A DNA stretch of 33,266 nucleotides from Pseudomonadota bacterium. Its GTDB lineage: Bacteria; Pseudomonadota; Gammaproteobacteria; Steroidobacterales; Steroidobacteraceae. The stretch is from positions 1 through 33,266 of the forward strand of contig JAKBCR010000022.1 in the NCBI GenBank assembly GCA_021807675.1. The letters run 5' to 3'. Below, piece by piece: positions 19,983 to 26,328 of the stretch; the first letter of the stretch is position 1; every line of letters starts with the position of its first letter. The translations under genes and the position numbers were made by a program. A model generated the notes under the pieces. The model saw only the letters and a list, made by a program, of their open reading frames with translations, ran no database searches and was not told the DNA's origin.

Positions 19983-20017
19983 GCCCGCCGCAGGCAGCCA
20001 GCCTGCGGCGGGCCCTT
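19983..20017 (+). terminator. Hairpin terminator after the lipoprotein gene
   Basis: GCCCGCCGCAGGC pairs perfectly with GCCTGCGGCGGGC (13 bp) around a 5-base loop, 34 bases after the stop. The T-tract is weak (CCTT), so termination may be partial. Confidence 0.6.
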
Positions 20018-20180
20018 GCGTCTGCCGTCCCATTGCGGTAAGTAATCCCGCAATGAATGGCGGCATGCGACTTTCTCGAGCATCTCTCGGCGCCTGCGGA
20101 CTTCCGCGCGAGGCGAAGAGCCCGGCTATTCCCACTCCGGGTGACCCAGCCTCGCGCCATGCGCCAGGCTCCGGGTCTTC

Positions 20181-20600
20181 GTGAGCGGCACGGACGATCT
20201 CCCGGAAGATGTGCGCGCGCTGCTCCACGAGCACATCGAATCTTACGAGCAGCTGGAAATCCTGCTGCTCCTGCGGCGCGAGCGGTACGAGCAATGGACC
20301 GAAGAGGGCCTGTCCGCGCGCCTGCGCGTTCGGGCTGAGCTCATCGAGACCGCGCTCGCGGCCCTGAAGGCGAGCGGTCTCATCGAGGCTGCCGGTGCGG
20401 TTCCGACGCGATTTGCCTACCGGCCCGCCAGCTCGGGGCTCGATGCGGCCGCCGGGCGCCTGGAGCGCGAGTACGCCGAGCGGCCGATCCTGGTCATCCA
20501 GCTGATGAGCGCCAACGCCATCGAGCGGCTGCGTACCGCGGCCCTGCACACGTTCGCCGATGCGTTCGTCCTGAGCAAGAAGGACAAGAGCCGTGGCTGA
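20181..20600 (+). CDS. Small winged-helix-like protein of unknown function
   Basis: 139-residue cytoplasmic protein starting at GTG 20181. Residues about 20-75 (EQLEILLLLRRERYEQW, then ARLRVRAELIETALAALKAS and GLIEAAG) have the spacing of a winged helix-turn-helix domain, so it may bind DNA. The C-terminal half (LEREYAERPILVIQLMSANA, IERLRTAALHTFADAF) is helical and ends in a basic tail. The ribosome site before the GTG is weak and the start is uncertain. Its stop overlaps the start of the following DUF5985 gene by 8 bases, and this overlap is preserved in the decayed duplicate. I infer a regulatory partner for the small membrane proteins. Confidence 0.7.
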   Translation: MSGTDDLPEDVRALLHEHIESYEQLEILLLLRRERYEQWTEEGLSARLRVRAELIETALAALKASGLIEAAGAVPTRFAYRPASSGLDAAAGRLEREYAERPILVIQLMSANAIERLRTAALHTFADAFVLSKKDKSRG

Positions 20601-20859
20601 GTCGGTTTACATCCTTTGCGCGATCACCAGCATCCTCTGCGCGCTGCTGCTCCTGCGCGGATACCGCGCAACGCGCACGCGCCTGCTCTTCTGGGCGAGT
20701 CTGTGCTTCGTGTTTCTGGCCATCAACAACGTGATCCTGTACATTGATCTCGTCATCATTCCGGCGAGCTCACCCATCGACCTCTTCTGGTATCGTAATA
20801 CCGCCGCGGTGGTTGGAATGCTGGTGCTCGTCTTCGGGCTCGTCTGGGAATCGCGCTAG
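20593..20859 (+). CDS. DUF5985 family small membrane protein (copy 1)
   Basis: 88-residue inner-membrane protein with three predicted helices (about 4-21, 31-53 and 69-84): YILCAITSILCALLLLRG, then RLLFWASLCFVFLAINNVIL and GMLVLVFGLVWESR. The arginine-rich first loop (YRATRTR) should be cytoplasmic. It fits the uncharacterised DUF5985 family as I recall it; no catalytic residues are visible. The start is GTG at 20593 within the end of the upstream gene, with AGAAGGA upstream. A second family member follows 18 bases later and a duplicate lies at 21396. Confidence 0.8.
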   Translation: MAESVYILCAITSILCALLLLRGYRATRTRLLFWASLCFVFLAINNVILYIDLVIIPASSPIDLFWYRNTAAVVGMLVLVFGLVWESR

Positions 20860-20877
20860 GGAGCGGGGAGCGGGAGC

Positions 20878-21147
20878 ATGAAGATCTTCATGTGGGGTGT
20901 CCTGGCGATGGCGAGCCTCGTCGCGGCGCTCTTTTTCCTGCGCTACTGGCGGGAAAGCCGGGAGCGGCTGTTCGCCTTCTTCGCGCTCGCCTTTGCCGGA
21001 CTTGCGGCCAACTGGACGGGACTCGCCATCATCGACCAGCCGAGCGATGAGGCACAGCAGAAGTACGCATACGTCGTGCGGCTGGTCGCGTTCCTGATTC
21101 TCATCATCGGCATCTTCGACAAGAACCGGCGCGGCGATCGGTTGTGA
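20878..21147 (+). CDS. DUF5985-like small membrane protein (second type)
   Basis: 89-residue membrane protein, MKIFMWGVLAMASLVAALFF with further helices near 35-52 (FFALAFAGLAANWTGLAI) and 66-80 (VRLVAFLILIIGIF). The layout parallels the preceding protein (helix, arginine-rich loop RYWRESRERL, helix, short loop, helix), so the pair probably arose from one ancestor and may form a heteromeric complex. The ATG at 20878 is preceded by GGGAGCGGGAGC. It is not present in the duplicated copy downstream. Function unknown. Confidence 0.8.
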   Translation: MKIFMWGVLAMASLVAALFFLRYWRESRERLFAFFALAFAGLAANWTGLAIIDQPSDEAQQKYAYVVRLVAFLILIIGIFDKNRRGDRL

Positions 21148-21211
21148 GATCGCTCCCCCCGTGGCGGTGTGCTTGCCTCTGCCGTCCTGTTGCGGTGATC
21201 ATTGAGGATGA

Positions 21212-21403
21212 GCGATTTGCCACCGGCCCGCGAGCTTCGGGCTCGATGCGGCCGCCGGGCGCCTGGAGCGCGAGTGCGCCGAGCGGCCGATCCCCGTCAT
21301 CCGGCTGATGAGCGCCAACGCCATCGAGCGGTTGCGCACCACAGCCCTGCACACGTTTGCCGACGCTTGCCTCTTCAACAAGAAAGACAACGACCTTGTC
21401 TGA
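21212..21403 (+). pseudogene. Truncated duplicate of the winged-helix-like gene
   Basis: Encodes only the C-terminal part of the 20181-20600 protein (FGLDAAAGRLERECAERPIP, then LMSANAIERLRTTALHTFAD) and ends at TGA 21403. The N-terminal half is deleted and one base is lost near the junction (CCTACC became CCACC), so no start codon remains in frame. Confidence 0.8.
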
Positions 21404-21653
21404 GGCGGTCTACATCCTTTGCGCTGTCACCAGTGTTCTTTGCGCGTTCCTGCTGCTGCGCGGATACCGCACGACGCGCACACGCCTTCTCTTCTGGGCA
21501 AGCCTCTGCTTCGTGTTCCTCGCAGTCAACAATGTGATTCTGTATGCCGATCTGGTGGTCCTGCCGCACGTCGATCTTTTCTGGTACCACAACATCACGG
21601 CAGTGACAGGAATGCTGGTGCTCCTTTTCGGGCTCGTCTGGGAGACGCGCTAG
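21396..21653 (+). CDS. DUF5985 family small membrane protein (copy 2)
   Basis: 85-residue duplicate of the 20593 gene, about three quarters identical by eye, with three residues missing in the second loop (VVLPHVDLFWY against VIIPASSPIDLFWY). The reading frame is intact, changes are mostly conservative (Ile/Val, Leu/Phe), and helices are preserved, so it may still be functional. The position matching the copy 1 GTG is TTG at 21396, again overlapping the end of the (now broken) winged-helix gene by 8 bases. Its 3' end overlaps the convergent efflux gene by 59 bases. Confidence 0.65.
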   Translation: MSEAVYILCAVTSVLCAFLLLRGYRTTRTRLLFWASLCFVFLAVNNVILYADLVVLPHVDLFWYHNITAVTGMLVLLFGLVWETR

Positions 21654-23133
21654 GGAGCGGGCCGCCGACGGCGAGCAACAGCTGTATCGTGTCGAGATAC
21701 TGGCGTGCCTGCGCCTGCAGGAAGCCGAGCTCCGCGCGCTGACGCTGGCGCTGCGCGTCGAGGACCTGCAACAGCCCTGAATTGCCCGCGCGGTAGCTCT
21801 GCCGCGCCAGATCCAGGCTCGCCTCTGAAGTCTCACGCGCGACGGACTGGGCCGCGACGAGCTGTGCATCGTGGTTGAGGGCATCGAGCAGATCGGCGAC
21901 CTGGCCGAAGGAGTCCAGCACCACCTGCTGATAGCGTGCGGCGCTTGCGTGCAGCGCATCGAGCGCCGCCCGGCGCTCGGCGCGCAGCGTTCCCCCATCG
22001 AAGAGCGGCTGGGTCAGACCCGCGATCAGCGACCATGCGGCCGAGGAGGCGTTGAAGAGCTTCGCGGGGGTCAGAGCCTGCTGGCCGAGAGTGGCGCTCA
22101 ACGCAATCTGCGGATAGAGATTCGCGGTCGCGACCCCGACCGCCGCAGTCGCCGCGTGAAGCCGCGCCTGCGCGGCCAGAATGTCCGGGCGCCGCCGCAC
22201 CAGCATCGAGGGCACACTGACTGGCAGCGCGCGCGGCAATTGGATGTCCGCGAGCTCCAGATCCGGCTGCGTCCAGTCCGCCGGGGGCTGACCGAGCAGC
22301 ACCGCGAGCGCATGGCGCGCGACCGCGAGCTGCTGATAGAGCGGCGGCAGCAGCGTCTGATCGCCCGCAAGCTGGCTTTGTGCGTCCAGCACATCGAGCT
22401 TCGACACCGAGCCGTTGGCGAACGCCGTGCGCACGAGGCGCAGATTGCTGCGGTCCTCGGCGAGCAGCTCCGCGGCTGCCCGGATCTGCCCTCGCGTCGC
22501 GGCGATGATGACGGCCTCGGAGGCCACATCGCCGGTGAGCGTCAGCCGGGCCGCCTCGAGCTCACTGCGCTCGTATTGCTCGAAGGCCCGCTCCTCCTCC
22601 ACCGAGCGGGCCGTGGCGCCGTCGTAATCGAGCATGTAGCGTACGTTCGCGCCGACCGACTCGTAGGTGAAAGGCGCGACCGCGAAGTTACCGAGAAATT
22701 GGGCGCCGTACTTCTGCCGCCCGACCGAGGCCTGCAGGTTCACCTGCGGATAGAGCTGTCCCGTCTGCGCCGCCACGAGCTCACGCGCCTGCGCCAACGT
22801 CGCCCTCGCGGCAGCGAGATCGCGATTGTCGGCCATGGCGCGCCGCACCAGATCATCGAGCTGCGGGGACTTGAAGAGCCTCCACCAGGCGGGCACCACG
22901 GGCGCGCCGAGCAGGATCCGCTGCTCATAGGCACCGGCGGCAGGCGCGCGGCGCGCGGCCGCCGCCGCGGCATTGTTGACGGGTTTGGATTCCCCGGCGG
23001 GCCGGTATCGGGCCGCCGCCGGCACCGCCGGACGGTGGAAATTGGGTCCGACAGTACAGCCGCCAAGGAGCGCCGCGGTGGCGAGCGCCACGGCCACTGG
23101 GCCGGGTTGAATTCGAACGGAGCCTGCAGGCAA
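21595..23133 (-). CDS. NodT-family outer-membrane efflux lipoprotein
   Basis: 512-residue TolC-like channel forming the outer-membrane exit duct for the EmrAB-type pump. The signal peptide ends in lipobox LLGGC with Cys26; TVGPNFHRPAVP right after it is typical of the NodT family. Two OEP repeats follow, with SLIAGLTQPLFDGG and YRAGNSGLLQVLDAQRQRQ as conserved blocks. The family normally ends soon after DTIQLLLAVGG; here about 20 extra residues (PLPSASPRRARKG...) come from the antisense of the duplicated DUF5985 copy, so the native end was probably replaced. The start is TTG at 23133, with GGAG 7 bases upstream inside the end of emrB. Last gene of the operon. Confidence 0.92.
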   Translation of the reverse strand: MPAGSVRIQPGPVAVALATAALLGGCTVGPNFHRPAVPAAARYRPAGESKPVNNAAAAAARRAPAAGAYEQRILLGAPVVPAWWRLFKSPQLDDLVRRAMADNRDLAAARATLAQARELVAAQTGQLYPQVNLQASVGRQKYGAQFLGNFAVAPFTYESVGANVRYMLDYDGATARSVEEERAFEQYERSELEAARLTLTGDVASEAVIIAATRGQIRAAAELLAEDRSNLRLVRTAFANGSVSKLDVLDAQSQLAGDQTLLPPLYQQLAVARHALAVLLGQPPADWTQPDLELADIQLPRALPVSVPSMLVRRRPDILAAQARLHAATAAVGVATANLYPQIALSATLGQQALTPAKLFNASSAAWSLIAGLTQPLFDGGTLRAERRAALDALHASAARYQQVVLDSFGQVADLLDALNHDAQLVAAQSVARETSEASLDLARQSYRAGNSGLLQVLDAQRQRQRAELGFLQAQARQYLDTIQLLLAVGGPLPSASPRRARKGAPAFLSLP

Positions 23134-23136
23134 GGG

Positions 23137-24666
23137 TCACTCCAGCACGACAGGCTCCTCCGCGCGCTGGCGGTCGGGGCGCAGGAGGAGCACCAAGGGA
23201 ATCAACGCCAAGATCATCAAGAACATTATCTTGAAGTCGTCATTGTAAGCGATCATCCGCGCCTGACGCGTAACGGCGGCATTGAGCGCCGCCAGCCCCG
23301 CCGGGGCGGTGAAGCTGTACGGCGCGGGCATCCGTATCTGGCCGCCGTAAGGGACGATGTGCGACGCCAGACGCTCATGCATGATTTGCGTATTGCGCGT
23401 CAACAGCGCGCCGGTCGCCGCGATCCCGATACTGCTGCCGACGTTGCGCAGCAGATTGAAGATGGATGCGCCCTCCGATCGATGCTGGCGCGGAAGCGCA
23501 GAGAACGCCATCGTCGTGACGGTGATGTACGTGAAGCCGTTGCCCAGGCCCTGGAGCAACATGACCGTCCAGACGAGGCTCTGTGGCATGTTCGTCGAGA
23601 AATGGCAGCTCACCTCCAGAGCCGCGGCGACGAGCACGATGCCGGCCGCGACCGGCACCCGCGGATCGATTTTACCTATCAGCCTGCCGCTGATGAACAT
23701 GGAGACGAAGCTGCCGATGCCTCGCGGCAACATGACGAGGCCAGCGGTGATCACGGGAAAGCGAAGGAGATCCTCGAGCAGCTGCGGTACCAGCGCCAGC
23801 GTCGAGAACATGCACATGCTCGAGGCGAAAACGAGAATGTTGCCCGCCGTGAAATTACGGTCCTTGAAGAGAGCCGGGCTGACGAACGGCTCGCGCGCGG
23901 TCAGGGTATGGACCAGGAAAACATACATGGCGGCGACCGAGAGCCCGGCCTCGATCCAGATCTCGGTGGAGTCGAACCAGTCCTTCAGCGAGCCACGGTC
24001 GAGGAAGATCTGCAGCGCCCCGACCGCGAGGGCGAGAGAGCTGAAGCCGAGGAAATCGAAGCGCGCACGGCGCGTGTTCGTCTCCCGCAGATAGGTGATG
24101 AACCCGAGCGCCGCCAGGATACCGAACGGCACGTTGATGAAGAACACCCACCGCCAGCTGTAGTTGTCCGTGAGCCAGCCGCCGAGCATCGGGGCGAGCA
24201 TCGGACCGAGCACCACCCCCTGGCCCCACAGAGCCATCGCGCGGCCGTGCCGCTCTGGCGGATTGATGTCGAGCAGCACGGACTGAGAGAGGGGACCCAG
24301 GGCGGCGCCGGAGATCCCCTGCAGCACCCGGAAGAGCACGATCTGCTCGATGGATTGCGACAACCCGCACAGCATGGAGCTCACGGTGAAGCCGATCACC
24401 GACAGTACGAGCACACGCTTGCGTCCGTACCGCCCCGCGAGCCAGCCGGAGAGCGGGGTCGCGATGGCAGCCGCCAGAATGTAAGAGGTGAGCACCCAGT
24501 CCATCTGGTTACGTGATGCCGACAGATTGCCACCGATGTGCGGCAGGGCGACATTGGCGATCGTGGTGTCCACTGCCTGCAGCACGGTGGCCAGCGTCAC
24601 CGAGACCGTGATGAGAGCGCGATGCGGGGACTGACCGGCTTCCATTGCGAATGACGCCCGCGACAT
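23137..24666 (-). CDS. emrB: DHA2-family drug:H+ antiporter (EmrB-like)
   Basis: 509-residue inner-membrane transporter of the 14-helix DHA2 family. Motif D1 is visible in LQAVDTTIANVALPHIGG, motif A in GWLAGRYGRKRVL, and motif C in GPMLAPMLGGWLTDNYSWRW. It expels lipophilic toxicants with the EmrA adaptor and the NodT channel. It begins at ATG 24666, 7 bases after the adaptor stop; an in-frame ATG seven codons later is an alternative. Gene order marR-emrA-emrB-outer membrane factor is the common arrangement, and the close spacing supports one transcript. Substrate specificity cannot be read from sequence. Confidence 0.93.
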   Translation of the reverse strand: MSRASFAMEAGQSPHRALITVSVTLATVLQAVDTTIANVALPHIGGNLSASRNQMDWVLTSYILAAAIATPLSGWLAGRYGRKRVLVLSVIGFTVSSMLCGLSQSIEQIVLFRVLQGISGAALGPLSQSVLLDINPPERHGRAMALWGQGVVLGPMLAPMLGGWLTDNYSWRWVFFINVPFGILAALGFITYLRETNTRRARFDFLGFSSLALAVGALQIFLDRGSLKDWFDSTEIWIEAGLSVAAMYVFLVHTLTAREPFVSPALFKDRNFTAGNILVFASSMCMFSTLALVPQLLEDLLRFPVITAGLVMLPRGIGSFVSMFISGRLIGKIDPRVPVAAGIVLVAAALEVSCHFSTNMPQSLVWTVMLLQGLGNGFTYITVTTMAFSALPRQHRSEGASIFNLLRNVGSSIGIAATGALLTRNTQIMHERLASHIVPYGGQIRMPAPYSFTAPAGLAALNAAVTRQARMIAYNDDFKIMFLMILALIPLVLLLRPDRQRAEEPVVLE

Positions 24667-24673
24667 CGCGCGG

Positions 24674-25813
24674 TCAGCGCGCGTTGGCAGCGATAGTATG
24701 CCGAGAGGAGTGCGGGCGCGTGTCGACCGTTACCGTCGCGCTTAGCCCCGAGCGCACCAGCGGCAGGCTCCCTTCGAGATGCAACCGGACCTTGAGACGC
24801 TGGACCACCTTGACCCAGTTGCCAGTTGCATTCTGCGGCGGAAGCACCGAGAACTGCGAGCCCGTGCCCGGCGTGATGCTCGTGACCACGGCGTGGAATG
24901 TCTTGCCCGGATACGCGTCGATCTGGACAGTCGCGGGGTCTCCGGGACGCATGCGAGCGAGCTGGTCTTCCTTGAAGTCGGCTTGCACCCATACGTCATG
25001 CATCGATACGAGCACGAACGCCGGAGTCGCAGCCGGCAGATAGCTGCCGACCTGCAGGTGGTCGACTTCGGTGACGATTCCGTCACTCGGAGCCGTGACA
25101 GTCGCGTAGGAAAGTTCGAGCAGCGCGCGATCGAGTGCCGCCTGGGCCTGCTCGACCAGCGGGTGCGATGCCACCTTGATGTCCGGATCGCCGCCGAGCT
25201 GCGCCAGCGCCGCGGTGATCTCCTGCTTTGCCGCGGCGACGCTCTGCCGCGCCTCGCTCAGCGCGAGTTGCGCCCGGTCCACCTGCGATCGAGAGGAGAT
25301 CCCGCTCGCGAGCAGCCGCGACTGGCGCCGGTACTCCCGATCGGCATAGGCGAGCGCACTCTCGGCGGATCGCAAGCCCACGAGCCGCTGCTGATAATCG
25401 GCCTTCAGGGATTGAACCTGCAGGCGAGCGGCCGCCAGGTGCGCGCGCGCGGCCTCCACCGCGATGCGGAACGGGCGCGCATCGAGTTGGAAAAGCGTCT
25501 GCCCACGGCGGACCCGCTGATTGTCGCGCACATCGACTTCACTCACCCGACCGGACACATTGGCGCTGATCGCCACTTGAGCCGCCCGCAGGTAAGCGTC
25601 GCCGGTCGACTCATAGCGGCCGCTCGTGAGATACCAGTAAAGACCGGCCGCGGCCAGCAGCACCGGCAATGCGAGCATGAGGGGCACCCGCAACCGCTCC
25701 CGCAATGGTTTGGGCCCGGACGGGACCAGGCGGGGCTCGGGGCGCAGCTCCGCAGGCTCCTCGTGACCCGGCGCCTCCCGCGCGGACTCCTGGGTCCTTG
25801 CCGCGAAGCTCAT
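24674..25813 (-). CDS. emrA: HlyD/EmrA-family periplasmic adaptor
   Basis: 379-residue membrane fusion protein. A cytoplasmic, Glu/Pro-rich N-terminus is followed by one anchor helix (about 43-60, VPLMLALPVLLAAAGLYWYL), the lipoyl half AQVAISANVSGRVSEVDV, a long coiled-coil hairpin (about 115-200, rich in Ala, Gln and Arg), and the second half with ATVTAPSDGIVTEVDHLQVG. The beta-barrel block DVWVQADFKEDQLARMRPG is characteristic of EmrA relatives. Its start overlaps the marR stop by 4 bases (ATGA), so repressor and pump are translationally coupled. Confidence 0.93.
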   Translation of the reverse strand: MSFAARTQESAREAPGHEEPAELRPEPRLVPSGPKPLRERLRVPLMLALPVLLAAAGLYWYLTSGRYESTGDAYLRAAQVAISANVSGRVSEVDVRDNQRVRRGQTLFQLDARPFRIAVEAARAHLAAARLQVQSLKADYQQRLVGLRSAESALAYADREYRRQSRLLASGISSRSQVDRAQLALSEARQSVAAAKQEITAALAQLGGDPDIKVASHPLVEQAQAALDRALLELSYATVTAPSDGIVTEVDHLQVGSYLPAATPAFVLVSMHDVWVQADFKEDQLARMRPGDPATVQIDAYPGKTFHAVVTSITPGTGSQFSVLPPQNATGNWVKVVQRLKVRLHLEGSLPLVRSGLSATVTVDTRPHSSRHTIAANAR

Positions 25814-26328
25814 CGCGAAGACCTCGCCGGCACTCGTCCTGGAGCCCGGGAAGAGCGCGCGCCCGCTTCCTCGTCGGCAGACTGCGGCTTCTGCGGTATC
25901 GGGGGCAGAGTTGCCAGGTTGGAATGCAGACGCTCCAGCAGCTCCAGGAGCTGCGACTGCTCCTCGCTCGAAATATCCCGCAGCACCTCGGCGCGCGTCT
26001 CCGAGATGAGCTGCGCGATGTGATCGAGCATCGGCTTTGCCTCGGAGGTCAGCCAGAGGGTATGGGCCCGCCGGTCCGTCGGATCGAAGCGACGCTGGAC
26101 CCAGCCGTCGGCTTCCATCCGATCGAGGATCCTCACCAAGGTCATCGGGTCGAGCTCCGTGAGCTCCGCGAGGCGCTTCTGACTGACGCCCTCATTGTTC
26201 TCGAGATAGATGAGAGCGCGGCACTGGGGCAGGGTAAGCGACAGAGCCTGCGCCCGCTCCTCGAAGCGCCGCGTGTAGCGGCGGCTGACGTCCTTCAAGA
26301 GGAATCCGAGCTGGCGATTAGAGTCCAT
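25810..26328 (-). CDS. MarR-family transcriptional regulator of the efflux operon
   Basis: 172-residue winged-helix dimeric repressor. The DNA-binding region reads LTLPQCRALIYLENNEGVSQ, then KRLAELTELDPMTLVRILDR (recognition helix) and the wing FDPTDRRAHTLWLT with the conserved D-x-R-x-R pattern. The C-terminal 25 residues (Ala/Arg/Ser-rich) form an extension. As first gene of the emrAB operon it most likely represses its own operon until a drug binds; this is inferred from family and position. An inverted repeat overlapping its start codon (26328-26350) is a good operator candidate. Divergent from trehalase. Confidence 0.92.
   Translation of the reverse strand: MDSNRQLGFLLKDVSRRYTRRFEERAQALSLTLPQCRALIYLENNEGVSQKRLAELTELDPMTLVRILDRMEADGWVQRRFDPTDRRAHTLWLTSEAKPMLDHIAQLISETRAEVLRDISSEEQSQLLELLERLHSNLATLPPIPQKPQSADEEAGARSSRAPGRVPARSSR

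Follow-up and report, generated by a model that had tools for sequence, protein, structure and literature searches.

What does a small gene cassette do that a bacterial genome carries twice, once complete and once in part? The cassette lies at positions 20015-21663 of a 33,266-nucleotide (nt) stretch of a Steroidobacteraceae genome (assembly GCA_021807675.1, contig JAKBCR010000022.1), which we refer to in full as the window. It encodes a winged helix-turn-helix (wHTH) protein and two small membrane proteins of the Pfam family DUF5985 (PF19447), which we call A and B. We report a new association of the wHTH-A-B operon with a poly-HAMP hybrid histidine kinase of the AskA/AskB/Amb07 kind. On balance, we lean towards a joint reading in which the locus is a decaying tandem module whose intact wHTH-A-B copy works with this kinase through a membrane heteromer.

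The elements of the two copies, in window positions and all on the plus strand, are these.

20015 to 20039, plus: leader repeat, copy 1, 5' of the wHTH gene (88% identity to 21172-21196 over 25 nt)
20181 to 20600, plus: wHTH protein (P0001), 139 amino acids (aa), GTG start (ArsR/MarR-structure profile matches, AlphaFold2 model, Foldseek)
20593 to 20859, plus: DUF5985-A (P0002), 88 aa, GTG start, three membrane-type helices (PF19447, 93.2 bits; model; hydropathy)
20878 to 21147, plus: DUF5985-B (P0003), 89 aa, ATG start, third gene of the cassette (PF19447, 84.3 bits; 3' of A in 80/80 named loci)
21172 to 21196, plus: leader repeat, copy 2 (25-nt match to the copy 1 leader, 88%)
21218 to 21403, plus: wHTH remnant, the C-terminal 59 or so codons and stop, without the N-terminal half (alignment to copy 1)
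21396 to 21653, plus: DUF5985-A copy 2 (A2, P0004), 85 aa, TTG start, frame intact, R68H (PF19447, 95.5 bits)

Comparison of the window with itself yields two direct-repeat segments, 20419-20718 against 21222-21521 (300 nt, 85%) and 20777-20867 against 21571-21661 (91 nt, 81%). Together with the 25-nt leader match, they bear out the two-copy tandem unit described in the original prediction, which had been made from the letters alone. From one leader to the next is 1157 nt, the length of a repeat unit made up of wHTH, A and B. If we call an operon complete when wHTH lies directly 5' and B directly 3' of A on the same strand, then copy 1 is complete and copy 2, with its truncated wHTH gene and without B, is not; the whole genome has three DUF5985 matches. 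Alignment to copy 1 shows, as predicted, that the second wHTH gene lacks about 370 nt of its 5' part and one further base (GATTTGCC-ACCGG). An in-frame TGA at 21209-21211 stands immediately upstream of the remnant, which offers no ATG, GTG or TTG before residue 31. The frame of A2 is intact and retains the predicted 8-nt overlap with the wHTH frame, GTGGCTGA at 20593-20600 in copy 1 and TTGTCTGA at 21396-21403 in copy 2. Its start codon is TTG rather than GTG; and the earlier account of copy 2, correct as to the decay of wHTH, overlooked the loss of B and the apparent loss of the usual stop codon of the neighbouring efflux gene, to which we return below.

All three small membrane proteins exceed the PF19447 cut-off of 27.3 bits across nearly the whole of its 86-position model. 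Since the gene at 20878 scores above this cut-off, it belongs to the same family as A; the original prediction was right to call it a paralog, and its place is that of the last gene in a conserved three-gene operon. A search of a species collection with an alignment of A alone returns 278 relatives; the 80 best are used here as the named loci. By record title these come from at least a dozen phyla (binning errors in metagenome-assembled genomes are possible), and five of the 80 are congeners. B is found downstream of A in 80/80 named loci and wHTH upstream of A in 79/80, the exception being L126, so that the wHTH-DUF5985-DUF5985 order on which the original prediction had staked its case does recur elsewhere. 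The same order is seen in the genus and class loci. Our genus sample comprises 58 genomes including that of the window (G000), and DUF5985 passes the cut-off in six of them; G009 and G010, whose DUF5985 matches are weak and fall under the cut-off, are counted as being without it. Only these six genomes have wHTH matches above 150 bits, and the other 18 genomes passing an E-value of 0.001 have wHTH matches of just 20-24 bits. In the class sample, for which two draws of 369 genomes with agreeing handles are taken as one set, DUF5985 occurs in 6/369 genomes, one of which, G183, carries a single, fused A. Among 193 sampled Myxococcota genomes DUF5985 is over the cut-off in 66, with exactly two hits in each.

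The original prediction had suggested a module based either on dosage or on a heteromer. Dosage is unsupported: every one of the 66 Myxococcota genomes has exactly two DUF5985 proteins, and a second cassette occurs in just one of the 80 named loci (L049, which is the locus of the congener G055). A heteromer of A and B is plausible, because A and B are always found paired. A, B and A2 all score above the gathering score of PF19447, which stands in Pfam as one family without a function; what we find differs from that entry in having two paired paralogs and an upstream wHTH partner. Literature searches for DUF5985 and PF19447, and for an operon of a winged-helix protein with small membrane proteins, found nothing. 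A plasmid search recovered DUF5985 in 5 of 72,556 records, from Azospirillum (3), Sphingobium and Novosphingobium, all on large plasmids predicted to be non-mobilizable.

When genes are called around 85 loci, a single large recurring cluster emerges, consisting of histidine kinases and receivers and present at 36 loci, with 15 members directly upstream of the cassette on the same strand; the next-largest cluster is present at 7. Many of the linked kinases are of one kind, with a HAMP array, GAF, HisKA and HATPase domains and two receivers (L090, L044, L046 and L061 were scanned). The original prediction had proposed to look for co-occurrence partners, and a kinase of this poly-HAMP hybrid kind is our candidate. 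With the kinase part of the G183 fusion (P0005) as query and a linkage threshold of >600 bits, a match lies near 21/80 named loci, as well as near the cassette of G407 and in G183, in four phyla by record title; in L086, L102 and L111 the match is short and covers about 160 residues of HAMP. The kinase is mostly upstream on the same strand, but downstream in L107 and on the opposite strand in L082, L088, L093, L122 and L044.

The association also holds at the level of genomes. In the class sample the kinase is present in 6/6 DUF5985 genomes versus 8/363 others (p=9e-10), or in 5/363 of those others if only matches >700 bits are considered; with the genome of the window and G183 removed, the comparison is 4/4 versus 8/363 (p=7e-7). 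For the genus we find 5/6 versus 14/52 (p=0.012), the one miss being G052, an assembly that is 82% complete. In the Myxococcota, 65/66 DUF5985 genomes have the kinase versus 23/127 others (p=2e-30), and in 41/66 it lies within 10 kb of the cassette, where roughly 0.004 per genome would be expected by chance. Among hand-picked cassette genomes, some of them chosen as linked, it is present in 27/28 at E<=1e-150, with G183 counted by its fused remnant. The dependence is one-sided: the cassette implies the kinase, and not the reverse.

In G183 the two are joined. At L046:9757-12612, residues 1-57 of A are in frame with a HAMP-GAF-HisKA-HATPase-REC-REC kinase, the wHTH gene is directly upstream, and B is absent. 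By hydropathy, the fusion kinase gains a membrane segment from A, whereas five linked kinases (L044, L088, L090, L107, L122) have no clear membrane segment of their own. The fusion is probably derived, since the kinase of G306, a congener of G183, shows the long HAMP array that is usual in this kind; it probably arose via a deletion between neighbours. The genome of the window has its own poly-HAMP hybrid kinase, G000:C30:956-3589 (L154), with 68% identity to that of G183 and located on a short separate contig.

Kinases of this architecture have been described before. AskA and AskB of Myxococcus xanthus and Amb07 of Sorangium belong to a group in which no transmembrane regions were found, and its group III-like kinases are described as combining HAMP arrays with a histidine kinase and two receivers (PMC7643160). 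The same paper reports that a Sln1-like transmembrane receptor was not found, and calls the interaction of glycerol with the kinases elusive, both as to whether it occurs and how. The cassette-linked kinases of L090 and L044 share with AskA, AskB, AskC and Amb07 the HAMP arrays, the histidine kinase and the two receivers; they differ in their neighbour, as the portion of PMC7643160 used here names no cassette-like partner. In two Myxococcota genomes, G606 and G532, the cassette lies at 0.85 Mb of the first contig, the kinase linked to it at 0.84-0.85 Mb and another kinase at 8.0-8.4 Mb; by gene number these kinases would fit MXAN_0712 (AskA) and MXAN_6735 (AskB). A literature search for MXAN_0711 and MXAN_0713-0717 found nothing, and a broad search on bacterial group III hybrid kinases gave off-topic results only. 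At L054:2-6490, L056:84-7264, L114:1-5851 and L128:2-7258, a poly-HAMP kinase, a receiver-kinase protein (HisKA or HWE type) and then the cassette follow one another on the same strand, an order that recalls askB-askC; L056 and the Myxococcus loci have a further small protein in between, CheB-like by eye only.

The proteins themselves give some indication of how such a partnership could be built. The AlphaFold2 model of the wHTH protein (predicted local distance difference test score, pLDDT, 92) adopts a winged-helix fold, in which the wing has two strands and the C-terminal helix 36 residues. Its best Foldseek matches are HlyU, Rv0880, AdcR and MarR, with a probability of 1.00 to HlyU and MarR, and its profile matches the HlyU structure at E 1.8e-6; the protein is thus predicted to have an ArsR/MarR-type winged-helix fold. 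No Pfam family passes its cut-off for P0001, which hence has no curated MarR/ArsR score; judged by E-value, 12/49 wHTH members match MarR_2, the best at E 0.00039. Conservation was counted over 88-90 rows with the minus-strand loci L037, L039, L041 and L043 left out; three of the 90 A rows repeat the same genes, which leaves 87 distinct A proteins. The best-conserved wHTH residues, F125, A128 and F129, are at the C-terminal tip, in a FADAF motif. In A the most conserved are W34, F39, D52, G82 (100%), N46 and R68, and in B they are G7, F20, F32, F35, R68, K82 and N83. The model of A (pLDDT 83) has helices at 2-27, 30-55 and 65-87. A fold search with this model gave only generic three-helix matches (best E 1.1), a profile search of the PDB with A gave no match, and an NCBIfam scan of 49 A proteins gave 2 stray matches. 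Read from start to stop, only the A of G183 exceeds 98 aa among the 90 rows.

These properties allow several other roles to be set aside. Paired small multidrug resistance (SMR) proteins such as EbrAB are small and homologous, are encoded by adjacent genes and presumably form a heteromer. A and B resemble them in all these respects but differ in having three helices, where SMR proteins have four, and in their kinase linkage; with three helices in the model and no SMR family among the Pfam or NCBIfam matches, we reject a transporter pair of this type. An anti-phage defence system is likewise rejected, PADLOC giving 0 families for P0001-P0004 at E<=0.01, as is a role for DUF5985 as an XrtV accessory protein, for which P0003 scores 18.4 bits against a cut-off of 35. 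Another parallel is the class of auxiliary membrane regulators that act on histidine kinases, in which a small membrane protein adjusts what the kinase does. A and B would do likewise, with the difference that the presumed partner kinase has no clear membrane part (in the five examined) and that the unit includes a wHTH protein.

We propose the following sequence of events and interactions. In an ancestor within the genus, wHTH, A and B would have been duplicated in tandem; in the genome studied here copy 2 would be in the course of being lost, the 5' half of wHTH and all of B having been deleted and A2 remaining intact under relaxed constraint. The partner of the intact module would most likely be the group-III/Ask type of poly-HAMP hybrid histidine kinase, with which it nearly always shares a genome. 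In the inner membrane A and B, homologous proteins of three helices each, would pair as an obligate heteromer. With its conserved C-terminal FADAF helix, the wHTH protein would bind either this A/B unit or the kinase, and it would couple the state of the membrane to the activity of the kinase or to a promoter. What we observe is the gene order, the pairing of A with B, the co-occurrence, the linkage and one fusion; from these we infer the heteromer, its contact with the kinase and the direction of the signal, A/B and wHTH serving the kinase most likely as its input. A narrower form of this proposal, about which we are doubtful, has wHTH-A-B sense conditions at the membrane on behalf of the bacterial poly-HAMP kinases (group III, Nik1-like): A/B would read the membrane or osmotic state, and the FADAF helix would pass the signal on to the HAMP stack and possibly also to a promoter. 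If this were true, wHTH-A-B would be a receptor for the myxobacterial AskA-type kinases, which seem to be without a membrane part. In either form the cassette is a concrete candidate partner for poly-HAMP hybrid kinases, and DUF5985 gains a testable functional hypothesis.

A number of observations weigh against a partnership of cassette and kinase. The kinase often occurs without the cassette (in the 23/127 Myxococcota, 14/52 congeners and 8/363 class genomes counted above), and at the thresholds used DUF5985 is present, and the kinase missing, in G487, G467 and G052. No match >600 bits accompanies 59/80 named loci, many of whose contigs are short; in 24/65 Myxococcota genomes that have both, the kinase is not within 10 kb of the cassette; and in the four genus genomes checked, kinase and cassette are on different contigs, without close linkage. 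All counts of co-occurrence and linkage ignore kinship, and the kinase query was itself taken from a cassette genome (G183). The fusion is a single case that retains neither the third membrane helix of A nor any of B, and it resembles the product of a deletion. A strain without AskA, AskB and AskC still responds to glycerol, and the other routes suggested for this are that glycerol enters the cell or that the cyclases CyaA/CyaB are involved (PMC7643160); a cassette serving Ask kinases would thus be at most one candidate, and not the sole glycerol route. Finally, one title among the references of PMC11253588 has the HAMP repeats themselves proposed as osmolarity sensors in fungi.

Some of these observations would follow if there were no functional link at all, both cassette and kinase being typical of signalling-rich bacteria and habitual neighbours in stress or signalling islands. 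Kinases without a cassette are common, cassettes without an adjacent kinase are common too (the window locus is an instance), and relatedness among the genomes could inflate the counts. We nonetheless regard this as improbable: the DUF5985 genomes in the class comparison (6/6 versus 8/363) measure 2.8-5.7 Mb, the kinase lies within 10 kb of the cassette in 41/66 Myxococcota genomes, and the relative orientation of the two varies across four phyla. The main rival reverses the direction of the signal, the module being an output in which the phosphorelay of the kinase or the wHTH protein controls A/B as small envelope-stress or transport proteins, with wHTH as autoregulator of the operon. ArsR/MarR-type regulators often adjoin what they control, and the wHTH protein is ArsR/MarR-like; the cassette of G407, moreover, has stress-type neighbours, BON and DUF2382 proteins. 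An output module would not lead one to expect that conservation of the wHTH protein peaks at its C-terminal tip rather than at the putative DNA-reading helix, nor that a fusion of A to the kinase exists, and we consider this rival rather unlikely, if a little less so than the sensor in its narrower form. The stress-type neighbourhood itself, at L044:10087-15835 downstream of the G407 cassette, includes one protein with a weak YflT match.

It remains to ask how the second copy arose and what keeps it. The congener G055 has two complete cassettes, head to tail, whereas G032, G035, G043 and G052 have a single cassette each. Since G055 keeps both copies complete, the tandem duplication of the full cassette probably came first, in an ancestor within the genus. 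In a tree of A, the first copies of G000 and G055 join (support 0.838), as do their second copies (0.755). The synonymous divergence (dS) between A1 and A2 of G000 is 0.81, and that between the first copies of G000 and G055 is 0.35; given this difference and the grouping in the tree, the duplication is probably older than the split between the two genomes. The wHTH remnant clusters with copy 1 of its own genome (support 0.789; dS 0.28), a grouping that suggests later gene conversion between the two. Tree supports are moderate throughout, and the position of the remnant counts against a duplication that predates the split. It would be expected if G000 and G055 had duplicated the cassette independently and owed their likeness to gene conversion, as would the fact that B2 of G055 groups apart from the first-copy B genes. 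The joining of the second copies in the A tree, and a dS within G000 exceeding that between species, make such separate events unlikely in our view.

The original prediction held that selection had kept the membrane protein and not the wHTH protein, and had asked for the ratio of nonsynonymous to synonymous rates (dN/dS) of the two A copies. This is 0.146, within the range of 0.11-0.27 among the pairs compared; for A2 against the second-copy A of G055 it is 0.19. For the wHTH remnant against copy 1 it is 0.45, compared with 0.08-0.36 for intact pairs over the same region. We also counted, at sites where five others agree, the changes found in one copy alone, leaving out the two G052 rows, which yielded impossible ancestral codons at multi-hit sites. 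A2 has 9 nonsynonymous and 5 synonymous unique changes, below neutral expectation (p=0.02), and the remnant has 9 and 2, which is neutral-like (p=0.57); the corresponding ratios are 1:3 for A1, 2:4 for G055 A1 and 6:4 for G055 A2. The predicted contrast holds in these counts, yet the absence of any selection on wHTH sits less well with a pairwise dN/dS of 0.45 rather than 1, and the keeping of the membrane proteins is incomplete, as A2 has R68H and the B of copy 2 is gone. Position 68 is Arg in 88/90 A rows (85/87 distinct A proteins) and His in A2. By the unique-change ratios, dN/dS and the loss of R68, A2 is constrained, though less than A1, and may be being lost.

Whether A2 is a pseudogene in waiting, without a function of its own, is close to an even question, on which we incline slightly to the negative. 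The replacement of R68, the TTG start, the loss of both the overlapping upstream wHTH gene and the partner B, and 9 nonsynonymous unique changes to the 1 in A1 all fit such a fate; the intact frame, the 9:5 ratio and the dN/dS of 0.19 against the second copy of G055 do not. The duplication itself is an ordinary case of tandem duplication followed by decay.

The remaining feature of the locus lies outside the module.

21595 to 23133, minus: outer-membrane efflux gene, OEP/NodT-type (PF02321)

Compared with four relatives, its product is about 18 residues longer at the C-terminus, and the frame stops within A2, antisense; the deletion that removed the B of copy 2 apparently also took the usual stop codon of this gene. 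A functional tie of the cassette to an EmrAB/OEP pump is rejected, as the synteny holds in most congener loci and is not seen among the distant loci clustered. The OEP and major facilitator superfamily (MFS) genes adjoin the cassette in congeners as well. At 21595-26328 on the minus strand, the NodT-type outer membrane protein, an EmrB-type MFS pump and an EmrA-type adaptor make up an ordinary efflux operon, upstream in which is a gene of 172 aa that is MarR-like by eye only.

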